Assembly (NCBI GenBank): GCA_903889915.1 | Contig: CAISZK010000176.1 | Location: forward strand, 1 to 39,938 | Reading direction: 5' to 3' | Source of the DNA: an uncultured Bacteroidota bacterium | GTDB lineage: Bacteria > Bacteroidota > Bacteroidia > Bacteroidales > CG2-30-32-10 | Length of the DNA stretch: 39,938 nucleotides | In this document: positions 866-39,901 of the stretch, in pieces | Position numbering within the stretch: position 1 is the stretch's first letter | How the letters are laid out: every line of letters begins with the position of its first letter | Notes under the pieces: generated by a model | Seen by the model: the letters and a program-made list of their open reading frames with translations, nothing else | Database searches by the model: none | What the model was told of the DNA's origin: nothing | Program-made: the position numbers and the translations under genes

Positions 866-3800
866 ATGAAAAATTACAGGCATTTAAATAATATGATTGG
901 CTGGGCGGTGTTTATTGTTGCCGCTGTCACTTATATTCTTACTTCCGAACCAACTGCCAGCTTCTGGGATCCGGGCGAATATATTTCTACAGCCTATAAA
1001 TTAGAGGTTGGTCATCCTCCCGGCGCTCCTACTTTTCAGTTGTTTGGAAGGATATTTTCATTGTTTGCTTTTGGCGATGTTACTCATGTGGCACGTATGG
1101 TGAACACTTTGTCGGCCCTTGCCAGCGGCTTTACCATATTATTTCTATTCTGGTCAATCACCATGCTTGCAAAAAAAGTTGTGTTGAAAAATGGTGAAAT
1201 GACTGATGCCAAAAAATGGGCAATTCTCGGCAGTGGTGTCGTCGGCGCTTTGGCTTATACCTTCTCTGATTCCTTCTGGTTCTCGGCTGTTGAAGGGGAG
1301 GTCTATGCAACATCTTCATTCTTTACCGCCTTTGTTTTCTGGGCTATTCTTAAATGGGAAAGTGAAGCTGAGGACAAACATTCAATGCGCTGGATCATCC
1401 TGATCGCCTACATGGTTGGACTTTCCATCGGTGTTCATCTTCTCAACCTTCTAGCTATTCCTGCCATTACTTTTGTTTATTATTTTAAGAAATACAAGCC
1501 AACGACAATTGGGATTATTTTAGCGTCGCTTACAGCGCTGGGCTTGCTGGTCGCAGTGATGTATATCATCATACCCTGGGTCGTTAAACTGTCAGGTTTG
1601 TGTGAACTGTTTTTCGTGAATAGCGTGGGGATGCCTTTTAATTCGGGTACTATTATTTACTTTGTTCTTTTGACCGCAGGCATTGTTGCCGGATTATGGC
1701 TGACAAAGCGCAGGCATAAAGTTATTGCGAATACTGTTATTTTGTGTTTTACTTTTATTCTGATTGGTTATTCCACATTTTTAATTCTCGTAATCCGTGC
1801 CAATGCCAATACGCCCATCAACGAAAACACGCCTAAAGATGCTATTTCATTACTGTCGTATCTGGGCAGGGAACAATATGGCGACTGGCCTTTGTTTTAT
1901 GGTCCTTATTACAATGCACCTGCCAACCCGCTTAGTCAGTGGGAAAATGGAAAACCTGTTTATGCGAAGGATGAAAAGAGCGGAAAATATGTGATCATTG
2001 ATAAACGTGAAAAGGAAAACCCCACTTACGATTCGCGTTTCTGCACGATCTTTCCCCGAATGTACAGCCAGGATGAAGAGTCAGGGCACATTCAGGCATA
2101 CAAGGACTGGGGCGATGTGACAGGTACACCTGTTTTATACACTGATCCTGAAACCGGGAAAAGCGAGCTTATTTATAAGCCCACCTTTTGGGAAAACCTC
2201 AAATATTTCTTCAATTACCAGGTCGGGCAAATGTATCTTCGTTATTTTCTTTGGAACTTTGCTGGAAAGCAAAATGATATTCAAAATGTGGATGGCAACC
2301 CGCTTGAAGGTAACTGGTATAGCGGAATTCCTTTCATTGATAACCGGCTGGGACCACAGGATAAATTACCTTATGAAATGGCAAACAACAAGGGGATGAA
2401 TAAATTTTATCTCCTGCCGCTGATACTCGGTTTTGTTGGGTTTTTATATCATTTGAATAAACACACACATGATTCGGTTGTCGTCATATTGCTTTTTCTT
2501 ATGACAGGAATTGCAATTGTTCTTTACCTGAATCAATATCCGAACCAGCCACGCGAAAGGGATTATGCTTATGCTGCCTCATTTTATGCATTTGCAATAT
2601 GGATTGGAATTGGCGTTCTTGCTTTGTTTGACCTGCTGAGCAAATATCTGAAGCCTAAAATGGCTGCAGCGTTGGCCACTTTGCTATGTGTTTTCGCAGT
2701 CCCCACAATTATGGCCAAAGAAGGATGGAATGATCATGATCGTTCGGGAAGATACACCACCGTTGATTTTGCTTCATGTTATCTGAATTCGTGCGCCAAA
2801 AATGCCATCCTTTTCACCAATGGCGACAATGATACTTTCCCGCTGTGGTATGCACAGGAAGTTGAAGGCATCCGTACTGATGTGAGGGTTGTGAATCTGA
2901 GTCTTCTCAGCGCCGACTGGTATATCAATTCAATGAAACGGAAAGCTTATGATTCGGATGCACTTCCCTTTCAGTTAACATGGGATCAATATAAAGAAGG
3001 GACGCGTGAGTATGTTTATTTTATTCCCGACACTATCAATTATCAATCCGATTCATTTTATAATGTAAAACCCCTGATGAACCTTGTGGCAAGCGATGAT
3101 CCTAAAACAAAATTCGCAGGCGACAGAGGCAATGTTGAATATTTTCCAACGCATAATTTTAATGTTCCCGTTGATAAAGAAAAAGTGCTCCACAACGGCA
3201 CTGTACCGTTAAGTATGGCCGATTCCATTGTATCCTCCATAAATTGGAAGATCAACAGGTATGGTGTTCAAAAAAGCGACCTGATGATTATTGACCTTAT
3301 TGCCAATAACAATTGGGACCGCCCCATTTATTTTGCGTCCTCATCGGGAACAAGCACTTTCCTGGGCCTGGGAAATTATCTTTATCTTGAAGGTCTTGCC
3401 TACAGGCTTATCCCTGTGAAAAAGGCTAAAAACATGGATGATGAACAGCCTGCCAAAGTGAACACCGCAGTGATGTATGACAACCTGATGAACAAATTTA
3501 AATTCGGACACATTGACGATACCACACTTTACATTGACCAAACCGTGGTTGACGGGGCAAACAGTCTTCGCTTAAGTTTTGCCCGCCTTGCCAATGCCCT
3601 TGCCGACGAAGGGAAAAAGGATTCTGCCATAAAAGTTCTCGACAAATGCCAGGCTGTTTTTCCTGAGCGAAATGTCCCTTATGATAATTATGAGTTGCTG
3701 GTAGCACAGGCATATTATAAAGCAGGAGCAATGGCAAAAGGAAACACTCTGATGAACCGTTTATTGAATCTTTATGAGCAAGACCTGACTTATTATTTTT

Positions 3801-3979
3801 TGTTCAGCGGTTCAAAAGCAAATTTGGTTGAATATCCCAAAGCTATTGCTTATAACATGATCGGACGGATTTCAAAAGTAGCCTCTGCCTATAAACAGGA
3901 CGCCACAAGCAAAAGGGCAGAAGCCACCGTGAAGAAATATTATAGCTATTTTCAGACGGAAAAAGATAAAGAGGAATAA
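866..3979 (+). CDS. DUF2723 family membrane protein (TMEM260-like glycosyltransferase) with C-terminal TPR-like region
   Basis: This 1037-residue protein has a hydrophobic N-terminal part with many membrane segments (to about residue 300), a second hydrophobic cluster near residues 510-620, and a soluble C-terminal third. Its first external loop carries the acidic pair in FWDPGEY (D35, E38) followed by GHPPGAP (50-55), the hallmark of DUF2723. The eukaryotic member TMEM260 is a protein O-mannosyltransferase, and the loop-1 acidic motif is typical of GT-C enzymes that use lipid-linked sugars. A role in glycosylating exported proteins or lipids at the inner membrane is therefore inferred. The C-terminal segment (about 900-1037), with helix pairs and VLDKCQAVFPE, looks TPR-like. 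Length is usual for Bacteroidota members. It stands alone, preceded by an AT-rich promoter region with only a weak -7 match. Confidence 0.85.
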   Translation: MKNYRHLNNMIGWAVFIVAAVTYILTSEPTASFWDPGEYISTAYKLEVGHPPGAPTFQLFGRIFSLFAFGDVTHVARMVNTLSALASGFTILFLFWSITMLAKKVVLKNGEMTDAKKWAILGSGVVGALAYTFSDSFWFSAVEGEVYATSSFFTAFVFWAILKWESEAEDKHSMRWIILIAYMVGLSIGVHLLNLLAIPAITFVYYFKKYKPTTIGIILASLTALGLLVAVMYIIIPWVVKLSGLCELFFVNSVGMPFNSGTIIYFVLLTAGIVAGLWLTKRRHKVIANTVILCFTFILIGYSTFLILVIRANANTPINENTPKDAISLLSYLGREQYGDWPLFYGPYYNAPANPLSQWENGKPVYAKDEKSGKYVIIDKREKENPTYDSRFCTIFPRMYSQDEESGHIQAYKDWGDVTGTPVLYTDPETGKSELIYKPTFWENLKYFFNYQVGQMYLRYFLWNFAGKQNDIQNVDGNPLEGNWYSGIPFIDNRLGPQDKLPYEMANNKGMNKFYLLPLILGFVGFLYHLNKHTHDSVVVILLFLMTGIAIVLYLNQYPNQPRERDYAYAASFYAFAIWIGIGVLALFDLLSKYLKPKMAAALATLLCVFAVPTIMAKEGWNDHDRSGRYTTVDFASCYLNSCAKNAILFTNGDNDTFPLWYAQEVEGIRTDVRVVNLSLLSADWYINSMKRKAYDSDALPFQLTWDQYKEGTREYVYFIPDTINYQSDSFYNVKPLMNLVASDDPKTKFAGDRGNVEYFPTHNFNVPVDKEKVLHNGTVPLSMADSIVSSINWKINRYGVQKSDLMIIDLIANNNWDRPIYFASSSGTSTFLGLGNYLYLEGLAYRLIPVKKAKNMDDEQPAKVNTAVMYDNLMNKFKFGHIDDTTLYIDQTVVDGANSLRLSFARLANALADEGKKDSAIKVLDKCQAVFPERNVPYDNYELLVAQAYYKAGAMAKGNTLMNRLLNLYEQDLTYYFLFSGSKANLVEYPKAIAYNMIGRISKVASAYKQDATSKRAEATVKKYYSYFQTEKDKEE

Positions 3980-4033: not shown

Positions 4034-4320
4034 GGAACGGGCGAGGAATTGTACTTTAGTGTCTTCAAAACATTTTTCTTTCATTTTTTTAAAAGCGAAA
4101 TTTCCTTTTAAATGTGAAATTGATACTCAATTTTGCTGACAGTTTACCTTCCTTTCAATCTCTTATTTTACCTTTACTATTATGTAAAACTGATTCTGCT
4201 TTTTTCATTGTCCTAAACCCAAATTCTGGGATTTTTTAGAAGGTTCTTTTACTCTCGTGAAAAGGTATTTAATTGATCTATAATTATCTTTGTAGGAAAC
4301 AGATTTTCTTTTTCAAATTT
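4034..4320. other. AT-rich non-coding stretch
   Basis: There is no convincing reading frame, RNA gene or promoter here. It is AT-rich sequence between the hairpin after the DUF2723 gene and the 20-bp tandem array. Confidence 0.6.
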
Positions 4321-4640
4321 AATGGACATATCTTCAAAATAATCGGAAGATTTGCAAAATAATCGGATTATCTTCCTAATAATCCCAAGATTTGCTAAAT
4401 AATCGGATTATCTTCTTAATAATCCCAAGATTTGCTAAATAATCGGATTATCTTCTTAATAATCCTAAGATTTGCTAAATAATCCCAAAAGTTACTAAAT
4501 AATCGGATTATCTTCTTAATAATCCCAAGATTTGCTAAATAATCCCAAAAGTTACTAAATAATCGGATTATCTTCTTAATAATCCCAAGATTTAGAAAAT
4601 AATCCCAAAAGTTGCTAAACAATCCCAAGATTAAGGAAAA
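4321..4640. repeat. 20-bp tandem repeat array with higher-order AB to ABC organisation
   Basis: About 16 units of exactly 20 bases lie head to tail, nearly all starting AATC. Three unit types recur: A = AATCGGATTATCTTCTTAAT, B = AATCCCAAGATTTGCTAAAT, C = AATCCCAAAAGTTACTAAAT. From 4361 the order is A B A B A B C A B C A B C, with single-base variants in some copies and degenerate units at both ends (4321-4360 and 4621-4640). The first half therefore has a 40-bp period and the second a 60-bp period. There are no spacers, so it is not a CRISPR array. A 70-residue minus-strand frame across it (4628-4416) exists only because 60 is divisible by 3, and it fails where the 40-bp period begins. Confidence 0.95.
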
Positions 4641-4907
4641 TTGATAAATGCCTGTAAATAACCTAATCGAGAAAACATCTACATATTTAAACTGATCTGA
4701 TAAATTTACATTTTCAAAACAGTTTAAGAAGGGAAAAATTTATTGAGCAGTTTTTGTAGATTTCACCGAATACCAATTTTTCTAGTTTCTGGTTTCTGTC
4801 ATTCTTTATTTTCTTCTTTTCATGTCCATCATTTTAACTATTTTCGCAATTCAAATCATTTTTTGTAAAGGCAGGTAATTGCCCGGTAATTCAATAAAAT
4901 TTCAAAA
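4641..4907. other. AT-rich non-coding stretch upstream of the deacetylase
   Basis: Nothing is recognisable beyond AT-rich sequence; it presumably holds the promoter of the downstream deacetylase gene. Confidence 0.5.
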
Positions 4908-5528
4908 ATGCATTTCTATTCCACACCTCCTATAATCAAAAATATTTTGAACAAAAATCTTGTCTGGAATATGGAAAATGACCGGAATGCTATATGGCTT
5001 ACTTTTGATGATGGTCCCGAACCTTCAGTGACACCCTGGGTTTTGGAGACACTGGAAAAATACCGGGCTAAAGCAACTTTTTTTTGTGTGGGAAATAATG
5101 CTGCGAAGCATCCTTCAATAATTGAGAATATCATAAAGGCAGGACATGCTGTGGGCAATCATACATACAATCATCTGAACGGTTGGCAAACGGACACTCA
5201 GGTATATTTGAGTGACATTGAGAAATGTGATTCGATATTAAATACGCCTCTATTCAGACCTCCTTACGGAAAAATAAAACCTTTGCAGTTGCGGCAACTG
5301 AAAGAGAAGTATAGTATCATTATGTGGAGTTTGATCACTTACGATTTCGATGCTGATCTGGATAAGGAAAAATGCCTTGAAAACGTTTTGAACAAAACAA
5401 AAAACGGAAGCATCGTGGTTTTTCATGATAGCCTGAAAGCAAAGGAACGAATGCAATTTGTGCTGCCCCGCATGCTTGAAAATTTTTCAAAAAAGGAATA
5501 TGAATTTCTTCCGATAATCATAAAGTGA
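4908..5528 (+). CDS. Polysaccharide deacetylase (NodB homology, CE4)
   Basis: This is a 206-residue single-domain enzyme with all five CE4 motifs: TFDDGP (32-37; D34 base and D35 metal ligand), HTYNH (85-89; metal ligands), RPPYG (117-121), MWS (139-141) and FHD (172-174; the His of the LHD motif). The family removes N- or O-acetyl groups from polysaccharides such as peptidoglycan, chitin oligomers or exopolysaccharide. The substrate cannot be told here. There is no signal peptide, so it is probably cytoplasmic or peripheral. The start at 4908 is preferred over the ATG at 4971 because residues 1-25 (STPP ... LVW) match the usual lead-in of Bacteroidota homologues. The next genes are glycosyltransferase and sugar amidotransferase genes on the other strand, consistent with an envelope-glycan locus. 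Confidence 0.9.
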   Translation: MHFYSTPPIIKNILNKNLVWNMENDRNAIWLTFDDGPEPSVTPWVLETLEKYRAKATFFCVGNNAAKHPSIIENIIKAGHAVGNHTYNHLNGWQTDTQVYLSDIEKCDSILNTPLFRPPYGKIKPLQLRQLKEKYSIIMWSLITYDFDADLDKEKCLENVLNKTKNGSIVVFHDSLKAKERMQFVLPRMLENFSKKEYEFLPIIIK

Positions 5529-5557
5529 AAGTCTTGAAGGTTTATTTTCTAAAACAA

Positions 5558-5670
5558 TTTTACCACATAGTCACGTAGAAACATAGAACTTCACATAGGT
5601 AAAATTTCAGAAAGTTCCTTGAATGTATAGTGATTTTCTATGTGAAATCTATGTGCATTTGTGGTGAAAA
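5558..5670. repeat. Imperfect palindrome built of CACATAG-like words
   Basis: The left arm contains CACATAG, CACGTAG, ACATAG and CACATAG; the right arm carries the complementary words CTATGTG, CTATGTG and TTGTGGTGA. The arms are about 45 bases and pair imperfectly. The element lies between two convergent genes and could act as a two-way terminator or be a REP-like relic. Confidence 0.6.
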
Positions 5671-5734
5671 AACTGCATTGATTATGGTTCTAAATTCAAG
5701 GGATCCTTCCTGACATAATAATGGAAGCGAAGAT

Positions 5735-8314
5735 TCATTCCTGAAGCGTATGTATCATCCCTGAAAGCTTCTCAGCCTGCTTCTTTCTGCTGTAGCCATC
5801 GAAGTTTTGAACATTGTTACCAATGCTTCCGTTCTTAATAAATTCCTCATAAAGATTTTGCAGATGCATTTCAACATCGTTTTCATCCCCGCAAATTAAT
5901 CCGCAATTTGTTTCATTGAGTATTCTGAACATTTCCTGATGATCGTTTTCCACAAGAAGAATTTTTCTGTTGAGCGCCATGTATTCAAATATTTTTGCAC
6001 TGATAGGGGTGTAATTTCTGTTGCCAAGCAGGAGCAGAACACCGGCTTTTTTCAGCTTCTTCAATAGTTCCTTTTGTGGCAGTGCATCGTAGATATTGAT
6101 ATAATTGTTGATCGCGGGATTGAATGACAAAACCCTTTTTGATTCCAGAGTTTTGAAATCAATTCCATAAAACGACAACGTGATTTTTGAATCGGGCTTT
6201 TGCTTTATAAATGATGCAAACCCTCCGAGAAACATTTCGAGTTTTTGAAATGGATAAATTGATCCGCAGTATGCAATTTCGAGCGCTCCGGTATTTTGTT
6301 CAATCGCATCAAGTCCTTCATAAAGTTCTTCAAAAAAACCATTGTAAACAATTTCAATTTTTTTTTCGGGAATCAGTTTTTTCAGATCATTTTTAATAGG
6401 GTTGGCAGTTGTCACAACGAACAAGCTGTTTCTGACATATTTTTTTTCAAACCTCCGGAAGTAATTATTTGTAAAAAATTTATTCAGCCAGTCAATATTG
6501 TAAAGGGCATTATAGTTGGTAGTCCATCCATCGCGGTAATCAGCTATCCAGGGGATATTGAATTTTTTATTCAGTTTGTAAGCGTATCTGAAAAGGATAA
6601 AAGGTTCGCCGGTGGCAATGATCAAATCAAAATGCTGTGTCCTGATAAGCTTTCTGGCAGTTTTGTAAATGCAGGATTTATTGTCAAAAAAAGTGGTGTA
6701 AAATTGTGCAATATTATTGATCAGAGTCAAAAACTTTCTTAACCAGACAAACCTGTCAACACCATACTTTGAAATAATGATGTCTCTTATATTGGGCGAA
6801 TAGGGGGTTCTGATAACCGTGCCCGAAGCTGACACAGATTTTTGAATATTTCTGCTGCCTGATTTGTAAAAATAATTTTCGTTCAGATTAATTGAGTCAT
6901 CCCATTGCCTTGTGACAACAGTGGGGCTTAATCCGAATAATTTAAAATACAAATACCATGAGTAAGGTCTTTGAGCGCCTATGGTATTCAGTGGAGCAAA
7001 ATCATGGGCTAGTATCAAGATGTTTTTATCCCTCAGCAGGTAACTGCAAAATATTTCGGTTTGCTTTTCGCGTGAATAAAAAGAAACTTCCGATTCATCA
7101 AAGGATACATCGGGAATAATTTGACCTTCTTTCTTAAGCTTAATCTGATCAAGAATAAACTCTTTTAATGAAGACGGAGAATCGAAAACATGACCCACAC
7201 TGTGTTTTTGAACAATATCTGCAAGCAATCCCTGGTCGCCCGGAATGACAAGTATTGGTCTTTTTACAGAAAGATAATCATAAGTTTTGGCGTTAATGAT
7301 GGGATAATCCTTCTGAGTGAAATTCAACAGAAAGTCTGATTCCGCGCTAATCTTCAGCGATTCTTCCCTGTTCACTCTTGCGGTATAATTCACATATTCT
7401 TCCAGTCTCTTTCCGTATCTGGTGATCCTTTGTGTTTGTTCTTTTTCGTATTTAACCCCGATAAAATTAAACTTAATATCAGCAGGAGAGATGAGTCCTT
7501 CTTTATCGAGATCACAAATTACATCCAGCAGATACTCTATTCTCTGTCCCATGGTAACTGTGCCGATATGCGTAAGGATCAAAGGAAGCCCGGTTTTATG
7601 TTGTGCAGCTTTTTGGTAAAACTTTTCAAATCCATTGTAAACAACTTTCACATCTCTTTTGAAAAGATCAGATAATTTGCCTGCAAGCAAAGGGTCAACA
7701 GTCTGCAGAAAATCGGCTCTTTTTATGTATTTTCTTTCATAATGAAATTCGAGAGTCCGAAGGGTTCTGTTAAAAATATCCTGTCTGAAATCAACATTAT
7801 GATTAAGATACCAGCCATCGCGATAATCAGCCACCCATTGAACATTGTGTTTTTTTCTTAAAAGAAATCCGTATTTAAATAAAATGAAAGGTTCGCCGGT
7901 TGTGATGACATAATCCACACGATTATTTTTCAAATATTTTTTCGCGTGTTTGTAAACGTTCCTGTGTTTATCAAACATGAAAAAAGAGAAGGAGAATATT
8001 TTATAAATGAAGGAAAGAAATTTGCGTATCACCACAAATCGGCTGTCACCATATTTAAGGAACAATAAATCCGAAAAGTTTTGAATAAGTGGCACCCTGA
8101 TAATAGTGCCATGTTCGGTATTTTCCTCACATATCGTGTTATCTTGTGAAACACCCATAACATCAAAAACAGTGGCTGATTTCCCCGACCAGTTCTTGGT
8201 GATCACTGTAACATCAACACCAAATTTTTTAAAATATTTGTACCAGCTATAAGGCCTCTGCGCCCCTATTGAATTAAGGGGAGGAAAATCGTTGCAGAGA
8301 ATTAGGGCCTTCAT
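5735..8314 (-). CDS. Internally duplicated glycosyltransferase (two GT4-like modules fused)
   Basis: The 859-residue product consists of two homologous halves. Residues 1-428 begin ALILCNDFPPLNSIGAQRPY; residues 429-859 begin ILILAHDFAPLNTIGAQRPY. Both halves share PYSWY, TGEPFILF(K/R)Y, WVADYRDGW/WIADYRDGW and VVYNGF/IVYNGF in the same order. Each half is a GT-B glycosyltransferase, with an N-terminal acceptor domain and a C-terminal nucleotide-sugar domain. The donor-site motif is KIFEYMA in the second half but KTYDYLS in the first, so E is replaced by D and the first module may differ in activity. There are no membrane segments. Sugar and acceptor are unknown; the neighbouring deacetylase and sugar amidotransferase suggest surface polysaccharide or LPS assembly. 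It follows the amidotransferase gene on the same strand by 58 bases. Confidence 0.88.
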   Translation of the reverse strand: MKALILCNDFPPLNSIGAQRPYSWYKYFKKFGVDVTVITKNWSGKSATVFDVMGVSQDNTICEENTEHGTIIRVPLIQNFSDLLFLKYGDSRFVVIRKFLSFIYKIFSFSFFMFDKHRNVYKHAKKYLKNNRVDYVITTGEPFILFKYGFLLRKKHNVQWVADYRDGWYLNHNVDFRQDIFNRTLRTLEFHYERKYIKRADFLQTVDPLLAGKLSDLFKRDVKVVYNGFEKFYQKAAQHKTGLPLILTHIGTVTMGQRIEYLLDVICDLDKEGLISPADIKFNFIGVKYEKEQTQRITRYGKRLEEYVNYTARVNREESLKISAESDFLLNFTQKDYPIINAKTYDYLSVKRPILVIPGDQGLLADIVQKHSVGHVFDSPSSLKEFILDQIKLKKEGQIIPDVSFDESEVSFYSREKQTEIFCSYLLRDKNILILAHDFAPLNTIGAQRPYSWYLYFKLFGLSPTVVTRQWDDSINLNENYFYKSGSRNIQKSVSASGTVIRTPYSPNIRDIIISKYGVDRFVWLRKFLTLINNIAQFYTTFFDNKSCIYKTARKLIRTQHFDLIIATGEPFILFRYAYKLNKKFNIPWIADYRDGWTTNYNALYNIDWLNKFFTNNYFRRFEKKYVRNSLFVVTTANPIKNDLKKLIPEKKIEIVYNGFFEELYEGLDAIEQNTGALEIAYCGSIYPFQKLEMFLGGFASFIKQKPDSKITLSFYGIDFKTLESKRVLSFNPAINNYINIYDALPQKELLKKLKKAGVLLLLGNRNYTPISAKIFEYMALNRKILLVENDHQEMFRILNETNCGLICGDENDVEMHLQNLYEEFIKNGSIGNNVQNFDGYSRKKQAEKLSGMIHTLQE

Positions 8315-38920: not shown

Positions 38921-39901
38921 ATGCGAAAACTTATTGAAAAATTTCATGCAAAAATTGAACGCACCAATGTTTCTTTTGTTCGCGATGTGTCTGAACAGAT
39001 AAGATGGAACAACCGCCTGATTGGGATTCAAGGCGCAAGAGGAGCCGGTAAAACCACGCTGTTGCTTCAATACATCAAATCACATTTCAGCGATTTAAGC
39101 AATGTACTTTACGTCAACCTTGATGATATATATTTTTCTGCAAATTCATTGGCGGAAATGGCTGACACTTTTATCAAAGAAGGAGGTAAATTTCTTTTTC
39201 TTGACGAGGTGCATCACTATAAAAGCTGGTCGCAGGAAATAAAAAATATTTATGACGACCATCCTGATGTGAAAGTGGTTTTCACAGGTTCTTCAGCCCT
39301 GCGTATTGGAAAATCAAAGGCTGACCTGAGCCGGAGAGCCATCATGTATGATTTGCCCGGATTATCCTACAGAGAATTCCTAAAGCTGAAATACGATCTT
39401 AACTTTCCAGTTGTAGCATTGAATGACATACTGAACGAACATGTGAAATTCAGCAGAAAAGTGATTTCAAAAGTAAAGCCGCTGGCAAAATTCAGGGAAT
39501 ACCTTAAATATGGTTATTACCCGTATTTCACTGAAGATGTTGAAACCTATTATCAACGACTTGAAGACACAATCAATCTTGCACTGGAATCCGACCTGCC
39601 TTATACTGCTGAAATCAGTTTTGCAAGTGTTGATAAGTTGAAAAAACTGCTTTATGTTCTTGCCGAATCGCCGCCTTTCAAACCGAATATTGCCAAACTT
39701 AGTGAAAAAACCGGGATTCCGAGGAATTCTGTAATCCAATTCCTGCATTACCTTGAAGATGCACGCATCATCAATTTGCTGCACGCATCAACAAAGGTGA
39801 CTATTCCGGGTCATTCGGCGCCACCTCTACCGGAGCAAACGGCGCCACCCCTACCGGTTCAATCAGCGCCACCCTACCGGTTCAAACGGCGCCACCTGTG
39901 A
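38921..39901 (+). pseudogene. AAA_14/DUF4143-type ATPase, truncated by an inserted repeat element
   Basis: Residues 1-292 form an AAA_14 ATPase: Walker A GARGAGKTT (38-46), Walker B KFLFLDEVHH (90-99) and sensor FTGSSALRI (121-129). A winged-helix-like region ends in IINLLHASTK. Family members then continue for about 80-100 residues into the DUF4143 C-terminal part; here the frame instead enters a GC-rich, proline-rich repeat (SAPPLPEQTAPPLPVQSAPP) and stops at 39901. The break falls at 39797, where an insertion-sequence end appears to start. Such ATPases are common multi-copy genes in Bacteroidota, of unclear role. A shortened protein with intact ATP-binding site may still be made from its good promoter. 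Confidence 0.8.

Follow-up and report, generated by a model that had tools for sequence, protein, structure and literature searches.

The window, by which we mean the whole stretch of 39,938 nucleotides that was analysed, belongs to a fragmented MAG of an uncultured Bacteroidota bacterium. Near its start, a TMEM260-like protein O-mannosyltransferase gene and a polysaccharide deacetylase gene flank a non-coding module of about 520 bp, which consists of a leader (4137-4320), a tandem array, and a tail that runs to position 4659. The features of this region are as follows:

866-3979, forward strand: TMEM260-like protein O-mannosyltransferase gene, upstream flank, outside the module (Pfam PF11028, E 2.7e-75)
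4137-4320, forward strand: module leader, about 184 bp, non-coding, 73-79% identical to positions 5557-5750, minus strand, of contig C333
4321-4360, forward strand: two degenerate edge units, their letters diverged and the 20-bp register intact
4361-4620, forward strand: 13 units, each of 20 bp, arranged ABABABCABCABC, about 70% identical to the sister array on C333
4621-4659, forward strand: degenerate last unit (4621-4640) and tail, where homology to the sister copy stops
4908-5528, forward strand: polysaccharide deacetylase gene, downstream flank (Pfam PF01522, E 5e-28)

The array itself (4321-4640) is composed of 16 abutting units, each exactly 20 bp in length, of three types: A (AATCGGATTATCTTCTTAAT), B (AATCCCAAGATTTGCTAAAT), and C (AATCCCAAAAGTTACTAAAT). 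The first two units (at 4321 and 4341) and the last (at 4621) are degenerate, and the 13 units between them read A B A B A B C A B C A B C. This is precisely the order given in a first-pass annotation made from the sequence of the window. That annotation had further proposed that the array grew by the copying of blocks rather than of single units, with a 40-bp block expanding before a 60-bp block. TRF detects periods of 20, 40, 60, and 100 bp, and the proportion of matches rises from 68% at period 20 to 81% at period 40 and 93% at period 60; the greater homogeneity of the 60-bp block fits the predicted order of expansion and supports block-wise growth. The array was also correctly described as lacking spacers and a coding frame. 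Its units directly adjoin one another, leading us to reject a CRISPR, and a coding repeat was rejected because the 20-bp period breaks the reading frame and no ORF of at least 80 aa covers the array. A search of the whole window for known RNA families found tRNA-Gln alone. A separate 24/47-bp tandem repeat is present at 39806-39897, within an ORF at the end of the window.

The array lies within a gap of 928 bp between the two flanking genes. Three genomes of the same family have matches to this gene pair separated by only 73-81 bp, and at 31 further Bacteroidota loci the gap measures 0-246 bp. One genome of the family, G001, has a gap of approximately 1.5 kb that contains no array, indicating that the gap of this pair has been lengthened more than once. 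Paralogues and fragments of the TMEM260-like gene occur on contigs C225, C369, and C237 of genome G000 and on C34 of G001, the latter genome also possessing a tandem pair.

A genome-wide search for other copies of the units identified a single relative of the array, also with a 20-bp period, on contig C333. The homology between the two loci covers 4137-4659 of the window and thus extends beyond the array to include both the leader and the tail. The leader is present twice in the whole genome, in the window and on C333; among 247 genomes of the order, only short, weak matches and no convincing copy were found. Both copies of the module are intergenic. The C333 sister array is located 151 bp downstream of a gene encoding a 215-aa member of the protein family described below, and it is the only one of the two copies that is linked to such a gene: the contig of the window carries no member of the family, and no remnant of one was detected in the gap beside the array. 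When the leaders were compared as RNA, an alignment of two sequences only, a single compensatory pair was found. The ends of the modules were compared with shuffled ends, and terminal inverted repeats were not significant in either the window (p 0.22) or the sister (p 0.61). No target-site duplication was evident at the ends of the homology, a comparison made without a clean empty site, and no flanking motif common to all arrays was found.

Solo copies occur in other array families as well. Six further arrays without a recognisable family gene beside them were searched genome-wide, and three of these have one additional copy. One of the additional copies, on C165, adjoins a family gene, and its solo partner is on C197; the two are homologous over approximately 1,030 bp at 84% identity, from the stop codon of the family gene to a sharp end. 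Given this starting point (L356:1246-1249), the C165 module may itself provide the stop codon of the gene. End inverted repeats in this pair are marginal (p 0.035-0.046). In genome G043, one of three related arrays is near a distant family member. In both the window/C333 and the C165/C197 pairs, the array is more diverged than its flanks. The array of the window, a solo module with a gene-linked sister, matches the C165/C197 pattern, and we regard it as very probably a stand-alone copy of a gene-linked array module.

The window array is one of a large class. In 650 kb of sequence, or 12% of the genome, TRF identified about two dozen intergenic arrays with periods of 20 or 21 bp or multiples of these (40, 42, 60, and 63 bp), most of which have private unit sequences. 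Scaling up from this sample, in which a few contigs had been chosen for the arrays they carry, we estimate that there are about 200 such intergenic arrays per genome. The window array fits this class in its 20-bp period and its intergenic, non-coding position, and nearly all of the non-heptamer intergenic arrays sampled in the genome have this period or its multiples. A second and separate population of intergenic arrays has periods of 7, 14, or 28 bp (L136:9494-9627, L065:4626-4691, L112:10694-10857, and others in G000). The 20/21-bp class is present in other genomes of the order; none of its arrays were found in samples of G217, G102, and G004. In a set of 80 Bacteroidota loci (1.26 Mb in total), two clear intergenic 21-bp arrays are present in a single record, L223. 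A short contig of G001 (L080:1-1456) carries two 21-bp arrays together with interleaved 17-bp arrays.

The first-pass annotation had noted that 20 bp is close to two helical turns and suggested that the motifs would lie on one face of the DNA, as expected for cooperative protein binding or bending. The two-turn spacing has proved to be common to the whole class, but bending is unsupported. In the window array, A/T phasing is high (z 3.4) but the AA/TT curvature signal is low (z 0.38), and over 48 arrays compared with shuffled units both measures are close to zero on average (class mean for AA/TT, 0.21); curved DNA and phased A-tracts were accordingly rejected. On average, the arrays have no half-period (10/11-bp) substructure. 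The suggestion that the array is a nucleoid or segregation site likewise fares poorly, in that a single such site is unlikely given the estimated 200 arrays of unrelated sequence. The units do contain reverse-complement symmetry in excess. It is greatest in the higher-order units of 42 and 63 bp, where self-complementarity is strong (mean z 3.0 and 4.5, respectively), as at L106:422-676, L115:13456-13751, and L119:11680-11900, and gives the impression that block formation involved hairpins or inverted copies. A hairpin in each unit was rejected as a general property, since it holds for several of the 42/63-bp blocks but not for most 21-bp arrays.

A comparison of all array neighbours revealed that the C333 protein and several others are distant relatives. 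Members of this family are approximately 210 aa in length, and the source genome contains about 40 members or fragments. The C-terminal half is a fibronectin-III (FnIII) domain (profile search of PDB, E 3e-15; Pfam fn3 in 8 of 16 members), the N-terminal half is probably helical and matches nothing, and members match fn3/Ig-like models only. The ratio dN/dS is 0.17-0.22 in five gene pairs, indicating that the proteins are maintained by purifying selection. Single-protein searches found no members in plasmids, phages, or viral contigs. Two members in G099 (L293:1090-2112 and L317:1498-2520) have an N-terminal extension of about 130 residues and are arranged in tandem with members of the ordinary form. 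A block of approximately 1.5 kb comprising a family gene and a 21-bp array (L066:294-1793 and L067:8820-10295) is 92% identical between G001 and G155, genomes from different families, and represents either recent transfer or mis-binning.

Across Bacteroidota, genes of this one family are linked to 20/21-bp arrays whose sequences are private. A search of 3,826 ORFs in 2.97 Mb with profile A3 recovered 13 small family genes at E <0.001, all 13 of which adjoin arrays, and a fourteenth match to a 755-aa protein. Many of the contigs searched in this way had been fetched for their arrays, and an independent test therefore carries more weight. When 149 relatives were searched with profile A2, an array of period 20, 21, or 42 bp was present within about 1.5 kb of the gene at 17 of 25 independent loci, all lying outside the source genome and the seeds (L293 and L302, neighbours on contig C24 of G099, being counted as separate loci). 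A phylum-wide search with A3 added eight full-length members, six of them with arrays, and at the 20-odd loci that matched in that search through the FnIII domain alone no 20/21-bp array was found. Thus, 23 of 33 independent family genes are linked to an array as opposed to 0 of 20 FnIII-only loci (Fisher p 2e-7), the control loci coming mostly from other genomes than the positives, so that the contrast may partly reflect differences from genome to genome. We found no earlier report of the array class or of its linkage to genes in the open-access literature, and the linkage of genes and arrays is a new result. Both this linkage and the dispersed leader-array-tail module were overlooked in the first-pass annotation.

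The geometry of the pairs was examined in 32 tabulated cases. The median distance between array and gene is approximately 150 bp, and the array is on the 5' side of the gene in 19 pairs and on the 3' side in 13. The arrays have no consistent strand composition relative to the genes, and no conserved third gene is present beside the pairs apart from minor similarities. Because the arrays occupy both sides of the genes without strand bias, a role as RNA is the less likely one. Only about a quarter of the sampled arrays have a recognisable family gene adjacent to them.

The explanation that we favour, at a probability of roughly 45%, combines a solo module, probably a by-product, in the window with arrays at family genes that serve as putative cis elements. 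Under this explanation, each family gene would retain its own array as an element acting at the level of DNA, and the array would present a row of putative sites two helical turns apart to the linked protein or to another DNA binder. Arrays would change by whole units or by blocks of 40-63 bp, through slippage or unequal crossing-over, and modules would occasionally be copied into new intergenic positions, where their presence is probably neutral. The window array would be one such by-product, and its arrival would have extended an old, closely spaced gene pair. The cis-element function taken by itself is more tentative than the explanation as a whole, and the presence of arrays on both sides of the genes, which is unusual for a regulatory element, counts against it. 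The adjacency of only a quarter of the arrays to family genes also counts against the favoured explanation, as does the finding that the family proteins are not consistently basic. A broader formulation, a previously unrecognised two-part Bacteroidota system in which a fast-diverging small protein, with a novel N-terminal half joined to FnIII, would recognise its private 20/21-bp array, with up to about 40 divergent copies per genome and modules seeded intergenically, is conceivable and rather less likely.

The strongest rival, which we nonetheless consider unlikely, is that the arrays are purely neutral minisatellites. A quirk of replication or repair would yield two-turn duplications in intergenic DNA, and the family genes would either reside in permissive, fast-changing regions or travel with the arrays. 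The unrelated unit sequences, the changes of length by whole units, the faster divergence of arrays than of their flanks, the predominance of solo arrays, and the absence of a curvature signal are all in keeping with neutrality. However, the linkage spans different classes within the phylum and does not extend to FnIII-only loci, and the family genes are conserved by selection. Less likely still is a MITE-like mobile element, in which a transposase supplied in trans would act on the ends of the module and the minisatellite would be passenger DNA. The dispersed intergenic modules with their sharp ends, and a layout that is the same as that of BrickBuilt (PMC4596501), would suit such an element; the module is present in only two copies, its end inverted repeats are not significant in the window or its sister and marginal in C165/C197, and no target duplication was seen.

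A reading of the pair as a system of the type III toxin-antitoxin kind is improbable. The pairing of a repeat array with one small protein gene, the 5' position of the array in the majority of pairs, and the excess of inverted-repeat symmetry are reminiscent of such systems, but the array is 3' in 13 of the 32 pairs and without strand bias in its composition, the units are 20/21 nt long, the FnIII-like protein matches no toxin family, and many arrays have no gene. Finally, the proposal that the array is a phase-variable regulator of the flanking envelope genes, its unit number tuning expression of the deacetylase gene, draws on its position between two co-directional genes with only a small gap between them in relatives, and is very improbable, as other arrays of the class adjoin many unrelated genes and promoter and terminator scans yield consensus matches only.

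These findings place one odd repeat within a general pattern that can be tested, in which the period is fixed near two helical turns, the sequence is free, and an uncharacterised protein family is involved phylum-wide. A functional pairing would constitute a new kind of gene-plus-repeat unit; a neutral one would still raise the question of why some bacterial genomes form minisatellites almost exclusively at 20-21 bp or multiples of this length.

Among known systems, the module resembles BrickBuilt of Porphyromonas gingivalis, also a member of Bacteroidales, a minisatellite-containing MITE in which one 23-nt unit is common to 19 copies, the ends are IS5-like and inverted, and movement by a transposase in trans, with the minisatellite as passenger, has been proposed (PMC4596501). 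Both have tandem repeats without spacers, each unit spanning about two helical turns, set between a leader and a tail, as well as intergenic and dispersed locations and variable array length. In contrast to BrickBuilt, the module has a 20-bp unit and two copies, one of which, the sister, has a protein gene linked to it, and the other arrays of the genome are built from unrelated units; as inverted ends were tested for and not found to be significant, we describe it as BrickBuilt-like in layout and do not class it as BrickBuilt. MITE464/PgRS of P. gingivalis, with internal repeats of 41 nt (PMC4596501), is likewise a dispersed element with tandem repeats, here of about four helical turns, but the flanks of its repeats are themselves repetitive and linkage to a protein is not reported in that paper. 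The type III toxin-antitoxin systems ToxIN, CptIN, and TenpIN (PMC8860590, PMC4627078) are likewise made up of one gene for a small protein and an array of tandem nucleotide repeats. The arrays described here differ from them in their 20/21-bp unit, in their location on either side of the gene, and in the many solo copies, and the linked protein, an FnIII domain joined to an unmatched half, is not of the ToxN/CptN/TenpN endoribonuclease family. Ordinary bacterial minisatellites and VNTR loci expand by whole units and by blocks and have degenerate edges. What sets the present arrays apart from these is their genome-wide restriction to periods of 20/21 bp and their linkage to one protein family.
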